A stretch of DNA of 24,131 bases from a virus: the IMG/VR virus record IMGVR_UViG_3300008267_000371, positions 1-24,131 of that record; one strand, written 5' to 3'. Below, piece by piece: positions 14,285 to 18,613 of the stretch (the first letter of the stretch is position 1; each line of letters opens with the position of its first letter). The notes under the pieces were generated by a model, which was not told where the DNA came from, did not search any database, and saw nothing but the letters and a program-made list of their open reading frames with translations. The translations under genes were made by a program, and so were the position numbers.

Positions 14285-14421
14285 CACAGCACCCACGTTG
14301 CAGTTTTGATCGCGATGCCTATCACTAAGCCACCAACAGCAGCGCCAAGCAAGGCCATGCCCATGACAAATATGATGGCGCCAATCATCAGGAGCGTATC
14401 ACTCCAGTCATTGTTTTTCAT
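14284..14421 (-). CDS. 45-aa hydrophobic membrane protein
   Basis: A short minus-strand frame begins at ATG 14421, inside the TGA of the nuclease gene (ATGA), and ends TGA at 14284-14286, overlapping the DUF3310 ATG. The 45 residues read MKNNDWSDTL followed by about 30 hydrophobic residues with Gly/Ala (MIGAIIFVMGMALLGAAVGG, then LVIGIAIKT). That is enough for one long or two short membrane helices. Coupled junctions on both sides and a hydrophobic protein product support it as a gene. Function is unknown; in an early operon it might modify the host membrane or block a second phage (speculative). Confidence 0.68.
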   Translation of the reverse strand: MKNNDWSDTLLMIGAIIFVMGMALLGAAVGGLVIGIAIKTATWVL

Positions 14422-15125
14422 GCCGCCCTCTTCTTGAGTTTCTCGTTCAGGTCATACAGCGAACGCAGGTTGATGAACGCCGGCCAAGCATCATCGTCGA
14501 GCGACGGGTAGAAGTGGTGGCCGAAGTCACCATTCTCTTTGCTGAAGCGCAGCAGGTGATAACCGCCGTCGATCTTGGTGCCGGTGCACTCTTCGTATGC
14601 TTTCGCATAGGCCACCAACTGGATCAGGTACTCAGGGTACACGCCGCCCGATGTCTTAAAGTCACCGAGCACGATCTTGCCGTTGAGCTTACCGATGAAG
14701 TCCAGCGTGCCGCCGTAGCGGTACGTCTCCGACAATACCGGCACCTCGCAGTCGATGATCTCGAGCTGTGTGCCCTTGCACCAGAACTCGAAAGCAGAGT
14801 AGGCGCTGACCACCTGCGCGCGAAACGCAGCCGGGTCTCGCGTCTCTGCCTTCTCCATCGTCTTCTCGAGGTGCTGGTGCGGATCACCGCCCTTGACGAA
14901 CACCTCGCACATCTCATGCACGCAGGTGCCAATCGCCAGTGCATCATTGGCATCGTATAAACCAGCCGGGGCTTCCATGCCCTGCCCCTCCAGCACGCCG
15001 TGTGCGCGACCGGTCTTATACGCCCAGTTGATCAATGCACCGGGGTCTTTGATCTTGAGGATTGTGGTGACAGACGGCACTTTCGTGCCGTCCGCCAGTT
15101 TATATCCACCGCGTAAGGTGGCCAT
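14418..15125 (-). CDS. PD-(D/E)XK exonuclease, RecB/Cas4-like
   Basis: A 235-residue nuclease. Motifs in order: VPSVTTIL near the start, GTCVHE at 66-71, E127 in CEVPVL, D142 in YGGTLDFIG, and LGDFKTS with D155 and K157, then YLIQLVAYAKAYEE (the Q/Y motif of RecB-type nucleases). This is the PD-(D/E)XK arrangement of Cas4, AddB/RecB and phage exonucleases. No four-Cys iron-sulphur cluster is present, so it is not a Cas4 proper. Beside an SSB-like gene it probably trims DNA ends for recombination-dependent replication or degrades host DNA (inference). Its ATG overlaps the SSB stop as TGATG. Confidence 0.87.
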   Translation of the reverse strand: MATLRGGYKLADGTKVPSVTTILKIKDPGALINWAYKTGRAHGVLEGQGMEAPAGLYDANDALAIGTCVHEMCEVFVKGGDPHQHLEKTMEKAETRDPAAFRAQVVSAYSAFEFWCKGTQLEIIDCEVPVLSETYRYGGTLDFIGKLNGKIVLGDFKTSGGVYPEYLIQLVAYAKAYEECTGTKIDGGYHLLRFSKENGDFGHHFYPSLDDDAWPAFINLRSLYDLNEKLKKRAA

Positions 15126-15769
15126 CAGAACGCGATCTCATCGTCGGTAAACTCCTGATTGACAGGAGCAGGCTTCGCTGCAGCAGGCGCTGCCTTCGGC
15201 AACACCGGCGCATCTACCACACGATTGGCGATCTTGTCTTGCACCCACTGCGGCAGTTTGTCAAACGCCACCGGATCTGGCTCGTCGATGCTGTACGTCA
15301 GCGCTTCACCTTCCAGCGTCGGCGCCGGCATACCCTTCGGCAGCGGCATGATGCTGGTTAGGTTGGCGTAAGTCTTATCACCCTTAACGCTGTGCGTGAC
15401 GTTGATAAACGCAGGCTTGCCGAGCACGTTGACCAGATCGAACTTCTTCAGCTCTTCTGGCGTGAAGGCACGGCCGCGCCATGACTGCAGCAACTGCCGC
15501 AGCGTCGCCTTCTCGTTGAGGCTCAGGCCAACCGTGCGGCTGATGACCGCCGGCAGGCTCTTGGCCTCGCCATCCTTGGTGATCTCGACGCGCTCGCTCG
15601 GGATCTGGAAGCGCAGCATGAGCGTGCGCTTGGGCGCGTACTGACCGCCCGGTGAGGCCTGCACGCCAAGGTCTACGACCATGTCGCACACGGCTGCATA
15701 GGCGCCTGCCTCGAGCGGCTTGCGCTCGGGATAGTTGCCACCACTTGATGCTGATACATAAATTGCCAT
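15125..15769 (-). CDS. Phage single-stranded DNA-binding-like protein
   Basis: A 214-residue protein with AAGGAG nine bases before ATG 15769. The fold markers are GNYPERKPLEAGAYAAVCDM, VVDLGVQ, LMLRFQIP, then SLNEKATLRQLLQSWRGRAF and LGKPAFINVTHS with KTYANLTSI. These are conserved in a widespread phage group usually seen beside recombination nucleases. The C-terminus is a flexible Ala/Pro stretch closing with the acidic tail FTDDEIAF, like the interaction tails of SSB proteins. It should coat single strands during replication and recombination and recruit partners through the tail. It heads the part of the operon that includes the nuclease. The SSB label is strong by tail and context, not by direct OB-fold proof. 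Confidence 0.82.
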   Translation of the reverse strand: MAIYVSASSGGNYPERKPLEAGAYAAVCDMVVDLGVQASPGGQYAPKRTLMLRFQIPSERVEITKDGEAKSLPAVISRTVGLSLNEKATLRQLLQSWRGRAFTPEELKKFDLVNVLGKPAFINVTHSVKGDKTYANLTSIMPLPKGMPAPTLEGEALTYSIDEPDPVAFDKLPQWVQDKIANRVVDAPVLPKAAPAAAKPAPVNQEFTDDEIAF

Positions 15770-15908: not shown

Positions 15909-16015
15909 CGCTCAAAGATCGCCACGGCAATCGCGAGCACTGCGAACACGGCGCACACCTTGATCAAAGTCACAGCGTGCGGCAGCTCTTCCGGGGTCAG
16001 CGTGAAGATGTCCAT
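15905..16015 (-). CDS. 36-aa one-TM peptide
   Basis: A small minus-strand frame from ATG 16015, sharing a base with the upstream TAA (TAATG), to TGA at 15905-15907. The product is MDIFTLTPEELPHAVT followed by a hydrophobic helix (LIKVCAVFAVLAIAVAIFER). A single membrane segment is clear. Both gene junctions overlap, as in the rest of the operon. Function is unknown. Confidence 0.55.
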   Translation of the reverse strand: MDIFTLTPEELPHAVTLIKVCAVFAVLAIAVAIFER

Positions 16016-16215
16016 TAGACTTCCACCTTCGGGCGATATTGTTTGTACAGCGCCTCGGCTTCATCGCGCAGGCCGATGTTGCCAAGCCGGTTGATCATCA
16101 TGCGAATCTGTAGCGCGCTGTCCCATCCGGCCTTCCAAGCGCGGTAGTCGTCGCTGTATTCGCTATACCAGTCATGGGTCTTAAGCTTCTGCTCGAGGTC
16201 TTGCAGGGTGGTCAT
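16015..16215 (-). CDS. First gene of leftward operon, hypothetical
   Basis: A 66-residue protein with AAGGAG five bases before ATG 16215, about 44 bases after the proposed transcription start. It is helical and charged: LQDLEQKLKTHDWYSEYSDD, YRAWKAGWDSALQIRMMINR, then LRDEAEALYKQYRP. The aromatic-rich centre is distinctive, but I recognise no family. As first gene of an early operon controlled by the Cro-like protein, it could act in host takeover or in DNA metabolism. It is followed by two tiny coupled frames before the SSB gene. Confidence 0.72.
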   Translation of the reverse strand: MTTLQDLEQKLKTHDWYSEYSDDYRAWKAGWDSALQIRMMINRLGNIGLRDEAEALYKQYRPKVEV

Positions 16216-16265
16216 GTCATCTCCTTCTATCGCTTCTAGCCAAGCACCGCGCCGGCCATGTGTGA

Positions 16266-16294
16266 ATCCTAGACGGTCTGAAAAAACAATACAA
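16266..16294 (-). promoter_or_regulatory. Leftward sigma70-type promoter
   Basis: On the minus strand, TTGTAT (16289-16294) and TAGGAT (16266-16271) are separated by exactly 17 bases, each matching 4 of 6 consensus positions. Start of transcription near 16259 would give a leader of about 44 bases before the first operon gene. The -35 box overlaps the left operator. Confidence 0.6.
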
Positions 16295-16305
16295 GCACTT
16301 TTTGT
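16291..16305. promoter_or_regulatory. Candidate operator O1, ACAA-N7-TTGT
   Basis: ACAAGCACTTTTTGT is an interrupted palindrome (ACAA, seven bases, TTGT). It overlaps the -35 box of the leftward promoter by four bases, so a bound protein would block RNA polymerase. The same pattern recurs 45 bp away as O2. Confidence 0.55.
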
Positions 16306-16318
16306 GTAAATAATTCGC

Positions 16319-16347
16319 TTGACGGCAGGATGGCCACAAACTAGGCT
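16319..16347 (+). promoter_or_regulatory. Rightward promoter of the Cro-like gene
   Basis: TTGACG (16319-16324) and TAGGCT (16342-16347) lie 17 bases apart. The -35 box matches 5 of 6; the -10 box matches only at T1, A2 and T6, the most conserved positions. A start seven bases downstream would fall at about 16354, only two bases before the ATG, giving an almost leaderless mRNA. No strong ribosome site precedes the ATG. Confidence 0.5.
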
Positions 16348-16350
16348 TGT
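16336..16350. promoter_or_regulatory. Candidate operator O2, ACAA-N7-TTGT
   Basis: ACAAACTAGGCTTGT repeats the ACAA-N7-TTGT pattern of O1 and covers the whole -10 box of the rightward promoter. Centres of O1 and O2 are 45 bp apart. Binding here would repress the regulator's own gene and the replication operon behind it. Confidence 0.55.
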
Positions 16351-16355
16351 AGGTT

Positions 16356-16565
16356 ATGAAAAAGCAACCACCGGAAACTATCGCCCTGCTCCACGCCGTG
16401 GACATACTGGGCGGACAAACGGCCACCGCAAAGAGGCTTGGCGTAAGCCAGCAGGCGGTGCAGTATTGGATCAGACGTGGCAGGGTGCCTGCCCTGAAGG
16501 CTATTCCGCTCGAAGCCGCAAGCGGAGTCTCTAGGAATAAACTGCGGCCGGACTTGTACCCATGA
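16356..16565 (+). CDS. Cro/YdaS-like HTH regulator
   Basis: A 69-residue DNA-binding protein. After a short lead, LLHAVDILGGQTATAKRLGV and SQQAVQYWIRRGRVPA form the helix-turn-helix, with the recognition helix near residues 31-41 (SQQAVQYWIRR). The tail KAIPLEAASGVSRNKLRPDL is typical of YdaS/Cro-like phage and prophage regulators. It lies at the divergent junction of two operons and probably binds the two matched palindromes just upstream, repressing its own promoter and the leftward one. No partner CI-type repressor with a protease or oligomerisation domain and no integrase is in the window, so lysogeny cannot be concluded. Its stop overlaps the prim-pol start (ATGA). Confidence 0.85.
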   Translation: MKKQPPETIALLHAVDILGGQTATAKRLGVSQQAVQYWIRRGRVPALKAIPLEAASGVSRNKLRPDLYP

Positions 16566-18613
16566 AACCAGAACTGACCGCTATCGTGCCGGTCGAGAAG
16601 ATCCTCGATCTGGCCAAGAAATACCCCGTATTCCCATGCAGGAGGAACGATGAAAAAGACGCAGAAGGGCGCACGCTCAAAGCCAAAAGCCCACTCACCA
16701 AAAACGGATTTAAAGACGCCACGCAAGACGAAGCCCAGATACGTCGATTCTGGGCCAGTCACCCTGACGCACTCGTTGGGGTTCCAACCGGCAGCCGCAC
16801 CAACCTCGCCGTCATCGACTTCGATACTCGGTCGGCTGACGCAATGGCTCAAGAGTGGCTGGCAGAGAATCAAGCCGCTTTAACTGGTACGCGAGTCCAC
16901 CAGACCGGCGGCGGTAGCGGCGGCCGGCACTACATCTTCAGCCTGCCGCACGGTGTCAAGATCCGCGGCGGCGTGTCCGTCACGCTCGGCAAGGTCAAGC
17001 GGCAAGGCCTCGACATCCGTGCCGAGGGCGGATACATCATCTGGTGGCCGCTGCACTACGGCCAAGGCGGCCCGTTGAACGATATCCGCTCGCTACCCGC
17101 AGGGTTGATCGACGAGCGGCGCATGGATCTTGAGCTGCCGGCAGAGGTGGCAGCCAAAATGCCAGCGAAGCCCGGCACCAGTCAGGACTTCCAGCGCGAG
17201 CTGCCGCGGATCACCGAGGCGCTGGCCTACATCGACCCTAGCCCATACGACGCATGGCTCATGGTCGGCATGGCGCTGCACCACGCAAGTGGCGGCGCGG
17301 ACGATGGCCTTGAGCTGTGGGATGCGTGGGCGAGTGGCGGTATCACTGGCAGCCTGCCGGACAACTACGCCGGGCGCGCCGACATCGAGTACCGCTGGCA
17401 GAGCTTCCATCTGGATCGCGGCAAGGGCGTGACGCTCGGCAGTCTGTTCAATGCGGCTAAGGGCGGCGGCTGGGTGTCGGTGCCAGAGGCGGTGCGGCTA
17501 GGGCCGCCAAAGCGCGAAGAACCGCAGGTGTCCTACGAGGATGTGCCCGAAGCGCAAGGCATGATGCGGGTGGTTGAGCCTGAAGTGCCTGCGCTAAACG
17601 CAACAAACGAAACAGCGTCGCCCGTTCGACGCCGTCTCACGCTGAGGCCCATTGGCGAGATCGTGAGCGAGCGGCGCGAGGCGACGTGGTTGATCCACAA
17701 CGTCATCGAGGCCAATGTGCTCGCCGTGCTCGCAGGGCCGCGCGCCAGCTTTAAGTCGTTCATTGCACTCGATTGGGCCATGAAGATCGCCTGCGCAGGC
17801 AACGCGGTGGTGGTGCTGTCGGGCGAAGGTGCAGGCTTAGGCAGGCGCGCCGAGGCGTGGATGCAGCAGCACGGCCAAGGCCAAGAGCTGCAAGATCTGC
17901 AACTGCTGGCGCTCGAGTCGGTGGCCAACCTGAACGCCGAAGAAGAGATGGCGGGGCTGCAGCAGGCTATTGAGGAGGCTGGCATTCGGCCAGCGCTCGT
18001 GATCGTCGATACCTTCAGCAAGTTCTCGGCAGGGCTTGATGAGAACAGCAACCAAGAGGTGGCCGAGTATCTCTCCAAGCTCACAGTCGGTGTCCGCGAG
18101 CGGTACTGCTCCGCGGTGCTGCTGGTGGCGCATAGTGGCCACGGCGATGCCAAGCGGCCAAGAGGCGCCAGTGCGCTAATGGCGAACCCGGATGCTGAGT
18201 ACATCGTCGAGCGGCCGGATGCGCAGGCGATGGTGGTGACGGTCACCCGCGAGCGGTTCAAGGACACGGCCAGTATGCAGCCGCTCGCATTCGAGGCGGT
18301 CGAGGTTGACCTAGGCCGGGTGGACAAGTACGGCGAGGCGGTCAAGTCGCTGGTGATGAAGGAGACGAACGCTCCGACCAAGGCGGCCGCGGCTCACTCG
18401 CCCCAAGGCAAGGCACAGCGGACGATCCTGTTTGCGCTCAGGGAGCGCCAGAAGAAGTCCGAGACGCCGCTCGTCTGGACGGTCGAGGAGATTCGCCAGA
18501 TCGGTCGTGAGTGTGGGGTGCCGCGGCAGTCTGTCCACGATGCGGTCGAAAAGTTGATGCTCTCACCCTTCCTGAAGGCCACTGTAGGTGGCTCCATGCT
18601 AGGTGAACCGTGA
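16562..18613 (+). CDS. Prim-pol/PriCT/RepA-type helicase fusion
   Basis: A 683-residue replication protein. Residues 10-190 form a primase-polymerase domain: VIDFDT gives D86 and D88, GGRHYIFS gives H123, and GLDIRAEGGYIIWWP gives the third acidic residue D151. Residues about 215-300 match a PriCT-type linker (ALAYIDPSPYDAWLMVGMAL). Residues 360-600 are a RepA/RecA-like ATPase: Walker A GPRASFKS at 392-399, Walker B ALVIVD ending at D483, HSGHG at 524-528 and RPRGASALM after it. The final part (about 610-683) has a winged-helix-like stretch (TVEEIRQIGRECGVPRQSVH). It should prime and unwind DNA at the phage origin. Its TGA touches the first iteron-like repeat, which is the most likely site of action. 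Confidence 0.92.
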   Translation: MKPELTAIVPVEKILDLAKKYPVFPCRRNDEKDAEGRTLKAKSPLTKNGFKDATQDEAQIRRFWASHPDALVGVPTGSRTNLAVIDFDTRSADAMAQEWLAENQAALTGTRVHQTGGGSGGRHYIFSLPHGVKIRGGVSVTLGKVKRQGLDIRAEGGYIIWWPLHYGQGGPLNDIRSLPAGLIDERRMDLELPAEVAAKMPAKPGTSQDFQRELPRITEALAYIDPSPYDAWLMVGMALHHASGGADDGLELWDAWASGGITGSLPDNYAGRADIEYRWQSFHLDRGKGVTLGSLFNAAKGGGWVSVPEAVRLGPPKREEPQVSYEDVPEAQGMMRVVEPEVPALNATNETASPVRRRLTLRPIGEIVSERREATWLIHNVIEANVLAVLAGPRASFKSFIALDWAMKIACAGNAVVVLSGEGAGLGRRAEAWMQQHGQGQELQDLQLLALESVANLNAEEEMAGLQQAIEEAGIRPALVIVDTFSKFSAGLDENSNQEVAEYLSKLTVGVRERYCSAVLLVAHSGHGDAKRPRGASALMANPDAEYIVERPDAQAMVVTVTRERFKDTASMQPLAFEAVEVDLGRVDKYGEAVKSLVMKETNAPTKAAAAHSPQGKAQRTILFALRERQKKSETPLVWTVEEIRQIGRECGVPRQSVHDAVEKLMLSPFLKATVGGSMLGEP

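Follow-up and report, generated by a model that had tools for sequence, protein, structure and literature searches.

Two palindromes overlap divergent predicted promoters

Why would phages without visible lysogeny diversify their repressor specificities and swap them, in the way that temperate phages do? The question arises from a 24-kb fragment in an IMG/VR virus record, analysed here over its whole length of 24,131 bases (the window), in which two copies of one palindrome lie beside the gene of a small helix-turn-helix (HTH) protein. The pattern ACAA-N7-TTGT occurs in the window as two exact matches only, O1 (16291-16305, ACAAGCACTTTTTGT) and O2 (16336-16350, ACAAACTAGGCTTGT). In dinucleotide shuffles of the window 0.17 copies are expected, and two or more appear anywhere in 4 of 100 shuffles; the weightier test lies in comparison with relatives.

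O1 overlaps the -35 of PL, a predicted leftward promoter (16266-16294, minus strand; -35 TTGTAT at 16294-16289, 17-base spacer, -10 TAGGAT at 16271-16266), and O2 contains the -10 of PR, its predicted rightward counterpart (16319-16347, plus strand; -35 TTGACG at 16319-16324, 17-base spacer, -10 TAGGCT at 16342-16347). These overlaps had been proposed in a first-pass annotation of this DNA, whose coordinates prove exact, and they are seen again in most relatives. Both promoters are sub-consensus, with 7/12 and 8/12 matches, respectively, and a generic promoter scan detected neither; geometry in relatives was used instead. The hexamers, spacings and operator overlaps of PL and PR repeat in most relatives and across the regulator classes described below, and this recurrence appears to be better evidence for the predicted promoters than the consensus match itself. 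The regulator gene begins on the plus strand at 16356, next to O2 as annotated, with five intervening bases. The PR -10 ends 8 nt before its ATG in the window and 6-10 nt before it in nearly all relatives, so near that the regulator mRNA is probably leaderless. An AT-rich block lies between the operators (16308-16315, AAATAATT); similar blocks recur in most classes, as AAATATTTTT and AAATAATT, and may represent a shared UP element or a third binding site.

The first-pass annotation went on to describe a bidirectional switch. What stands of this is the geometry, which predicts repression of both promoters; that the protein represses and switches, we infer. The two sites are unequally placed, one at the PL -35 (O1) and the other at the PR -10 (O2), as might be expected of a regulator that activates one promoter and represses the other, making a true switch instead of a simple shut-off. 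Yet in the window each site overlaps a core promoter hexamer, and a dimer bound at such a place usually blocks polymerase; neither occupies the usual position of an activator site, and we regard activation as improbable.

The operators change with the recognition helix

Relatives were collected by protein searches of viral contigs. The regulator found 28 loci and the primase 80, some of them shared, and the DNA upstream of each regulator was extracted from this comparison set of approximately 100 related environmental phage contigs. The window's regulator, with the recognition helix VSQQAVQYW, belongs to class A (S/T-QQAV-QY or -HD). Both ACAA-N7-TTGT sites are present, 44-45 bp apart, in all 20 distinct class-A switches, whose regulators are 62 to 100% identical; O1 is found in 20/20, and O2 takes the form ACAANNTANNNTTGT in every one, with a TA at the same position inside it (20/20), as a -10 contained in the operator would predict. 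In the protein-found set, none of the switches with other helices carries both ACAA-N7-TTGT sites.

The non-QQ relatives carry other palindromes, most of them likewise 44-45 bp apart; these were identified post hoc, by inspection of the sequences. Class B regulators (KPQAVHQ) have TCAAG-N5-CTTGA at O1 and, in most cases, a similar site 45 bp away. A KPQAVQQ regulator is accompanied by hybrid TCAAG...CTTGT sites 62 bp apart, an RPQAVQK regulator by ACAACC-type half-sites ~44 bp apart, and an APAAVSR regulator by YAACC/GGTTAA-type half-sites ~63 bp apart, the spacings in classes C and D being hand-counted in one printed sequence each. The second site of class C is only half palindromic, and a search for dyads alone was too noisy to define sites in classes C, D and E. 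Across classes, a Lys or Arg in the final variable position of the helix is paired with C at half-site base 5, and a Gln with G. This correspondence recalls the rules of Hall et al. 2005, as far as they are cited in PMC4488713, which link Cro helices to half-sites in lambdoid Cro proteins. The phages offer at least five naturally occurring pairs of Cro recognition helix and operator, the KPQAVQQ intermediate included, on which a protein-DNA recognition code could be tested. The arrangement differs in L045-type relatives (L045:80-210, also L046, L048 and L057), where one palindrome seemingly carries the -35 of both divergent promoters.

The first-pass annotation had proposed counting the pattern in the complete genome, as a test for many further copies; carried out on related genomes, the count did not refute its proposal. 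Of 10 long class-A records, nine have exactly two copies, both at the switch, and one has three; all seven long relatives with a different recognition helix lack the pattern. The two-site rule includes G001 and G005, which like G003 have 127-base end repeats and are probably complete genomes.

The pairing was also approached from the DNA side. When 2.9 million viral contigs were scanned for paired ACAA sites, TA being required in the second, 71 stretches were returned; a member of the regulator family starts directly after O2 in 42, with a QQ helix in 41 of these. The remaining stretches, which have other spacings or lack such a gene, are probably mostly unrelated, and one (L159) is cut off by the contig end. 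The equivalent TCAAG scan returned 36 stretches, 23 of them with the regulator, all 23 being KPQA[VI]HQ and all at the same spacing. Loci recovered by scanning overlap with those found by protein. At L149, twin ACAA sites lie beside a regulator with a TPQAVQKW helix, an exception to the QQ pairing and a possible intermediate specificity. A DNA search of the switch against cultured phages gave no match.

In phylogenetically independent contrasts a change of helix came with a change of operator in 9/9 cases for class A (QQ; p=0.004) and in 13/13 for class B (KPQ; p=0.0002). This linked change lends strong comparative support to the proposal that the adjacent 69-aa HTH protein has both sites as its operators. 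Together with the conservation of the sites across relatives, it argues strongly against the repeats having arisen by chance, notwithstanding the shuffles, or being the sites of another DNA-binding protein, and we consider either origin extremely improbable.

Operators and the DNA-reading half of the regulator are exchanged as a cassette

Mapped onto a 65-primase tree, helix class requires at least 28 changes, near the 32.2 of shuffled labels, and is thus nearly free of the ancestry of the adjacent gene. Close pairs, compared as DNA, show where the borders lie. Between L083 and L084, identity is mostly 83-100% upstream of approximately -100 to -120 (lower at the far left end) and mostly at least 90% from +150 on, with 43-73% for most of the stretch between these borders; L059 and L066 have the same border pattern. 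In the alignments of these close pairs, the borders delimit a cassette of ~300 bp, evidently swapped between near-identical flanks. In other pairs the likeness is largely confined to the right side, the leftward gene being mosaic too. The last residues of the regulator are nearly invariant among relatives, so that the leader of the leftward transcript and the regulator 3' end could serve as homology arms. In tables read by hand, at least six metagenomes contain more than one class (e.g. 3300044641, with A, B and C). These data support the first-pass reading of the sites as real and largely right, and extend it: the site-regulator pair appears to be an exchangeable specificity cassette with no detectable partner repressor.

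The regulator is a Cro-type protein

The regulator (16356-16565, plus strand, 69 aa) is a Cro/YdaS-type HTH protein, with Pfam matches to YdaS (YdaS_toxin, 7e-16) and P22_Cro (4e-8). Its AlphaFold model (mean pLDDT 92.9) has five helices, and the best solved structural match to that model is Xfaso 1 Cro (PDB 3bd1; TM 0.84, rmsd 0.8), also the top match by sequence profile, at 40% identity. The protein thus resembles Cro in being small and single-domain with a predicted Cro fold, and in its candidate palindromic operators, which lie on putative divergent early promoters and are linked to the recognition helix. The Pfam name invites a different reading, as a YdaS-type toxin module. No partner gene of a YdaS/YdaT toxin-antitoxin pair is adjacent, however: the next gene encodes a primase-helicase rather than an antitoxin, and the leftward neighbour lacks a Pfam match. 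Moreover, operator linkage points to a DNA-binding role, and the case has been made that YdaS itself is homologous to Cro and is no toxin (PMC5917428). We give the toxin reading almost no credence.

Compared with Xfaso 1 Cro, which shares the same all-helical fold, the regulator here has no detectable divergent CI-type repressor gene and would drive a primase directly. With Cro and CI of phage 434 it shares a recognition helix that opens with QQ, and ACAA half-sites. The phage 434 operator is ACAA-N6-TTGT; the site here is 15 bp long with N7 instead of 14 bp with N6, and the operators total two, where 434 has three in each control region. The lambdoid CI-Cro immunity region likewise has divergent early promoters, operators on core promoter elements and specificity exchanged as a module, whereas here two operators, no CI and no integrase were found. 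Cluster A mycobacteriophages are temperate and have many dispersed stoperators, unlike the two sites per genome here. What their immunity systems share with these phages is the diversity of repressor-operator specificities among relatives (PMC6550527). In the telomere phage PY54, a lytic Cro repressor similarly acts at very few operators; PY54 differs in possessing a partner prophage repressor and a prophage state (PMC4488713).

No lysogeny genes were detected in the phages

If the regulator were the CI-like maintenance repressor of a temperate phage, with an integrated or episomal prophage, the locus would be an ordinary immunity region. The lambda cI mRNA from PRM is leaderless, and the leaderless repressor mRNA predicted here recalls it. 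Frequent exchange of operator-repressor specificity is likewise typical of temperate immunity regions (compare Mavrich and Hatfull, PMC6550527). Against this, profile searches found no tyrosine integrase in 17 records and no serine recombinase, ParA or S24 repressor in 12 records, though distant families could be missed. A lambda-type region would have a divergent CI-type repressor gene and three operators per control region; each genome here has a single HTH_3-like match, no S24 and two sites. In a single scan of 84,980 species genomes from bacteria and archaea, no close prophage copy was seen, the best match being partial at 46%; the hits were only distant partial relatives of the primase. 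Those G001 proteins that were scanned cover terminase small subunit, portal, scaffold, virion, lysis and nucleotide functions, and none of them is the product of a lysogeny gene. Integrase, recombinase and partition genes are thus missing from the profile matches, an absence that is not proof, and we judge the temperate reading to be a minority possibility. These are apparently non-lysogenic podophages with a probable solo-Cro switch that has diversified in the manner of an immunity region.

A model for a lone Cro-type repressor

We therefore favor, with considerable confidence, a model in which a Cro-type autorepressor represses both early promoters and in which operators and the DNA-reading half of the protein form an exchanged cassette. 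The 69-aa all-helical protein would bind as a dimer to the two 15-bp palindromes 45 bp apart and block RNA polymerase at both divergent early promoters. Occupancy of O1 would occlude the -35 of the leftward promoter, which serves recombination and small genes, and occupancy of O2 would occlude the -10 of the regulator's own promoter, which also drives the primase-helicase; the predicted outcome is negative feedback that limits early transcription. Operators and DNA-reading half would be inherited as one ~300-bp cassette, of which at least five specificities exist and which close relatives would trade by recombination. The selective reason for this diversity may be that a resident repressor shuts off incoming phages of the same type. 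More tentatively, and with the odds somewhat against so broad a statement, a lone Cro-type repressor may function in phages without lysogeny as a superinfection-specificity locus: in the course of an infection the resident protein would shut off incoming same-operator relatives, rare specificities would win, and the operator-plus-HTH cassette would be constantly exchanged through the conserved leader and regulator 3' end.

Neighboring genes and a conserved leader

Downstream of the regulator lies a primase-polymerase/helicase gene (16562-18613, plus strand; Prim-Pol, PriCT_2, AAA_25), whose start overlaps the regulator stop by ATGA; its translation is therefore probably coupled, which would tie repressor level to primase level. 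The first leftward gene (16015-16215, minus strand) encodes a 66-aa protein to which no function is assigned; it differs between relatives, and profile searches gave neither a Pfam nor an HTH match. Beyond it, the leftward genes at 14418-15769 (minus strand) encode a 214-aa protein (phrog_862) and an exonuclease (phrog_298).

The leftward transcript has a conserved leader (16220-16264, minus strand) comprising a small hairpin at ~16258-16237, then GAAGCGAT, then a Shine-Dalgarno sequence, all kept although the first leftward gene differs between relatives. The hairpin is probably at the extreme 5' end of the transcript. Its case is a comparative one: across 37 sequences 94.5% of cells are paired, with compensatory changes in 2 of 7 pairs; the covariation score is reached by 0/500 shuffles, and pairing is far lower in slid versions. 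Three pairs are supported by RNAalifold alone, single-sequence folding does no better than shuffles in 4 of 5 cases, and an Rfam search gave no match. Reading the leader as a short peptide gene (ATGGACGGC...TAG) was rejected, as some relatives lack the ATG or are frame-shifted.

Gene content near the switch varies further. In G005-type phages, a 200-aa ORF resembling an HNH endonuclease (L025:3207-3809) separates the regulator from a replication protein. The helicase half of that replication protein is similar to the one in the window, and its first part is different. Near the switch in G001, a ferredoxin-like protein (phrog_3704; L110:12496-13212, minus strand) is encoded, a possible auxiliary metabolic gene.
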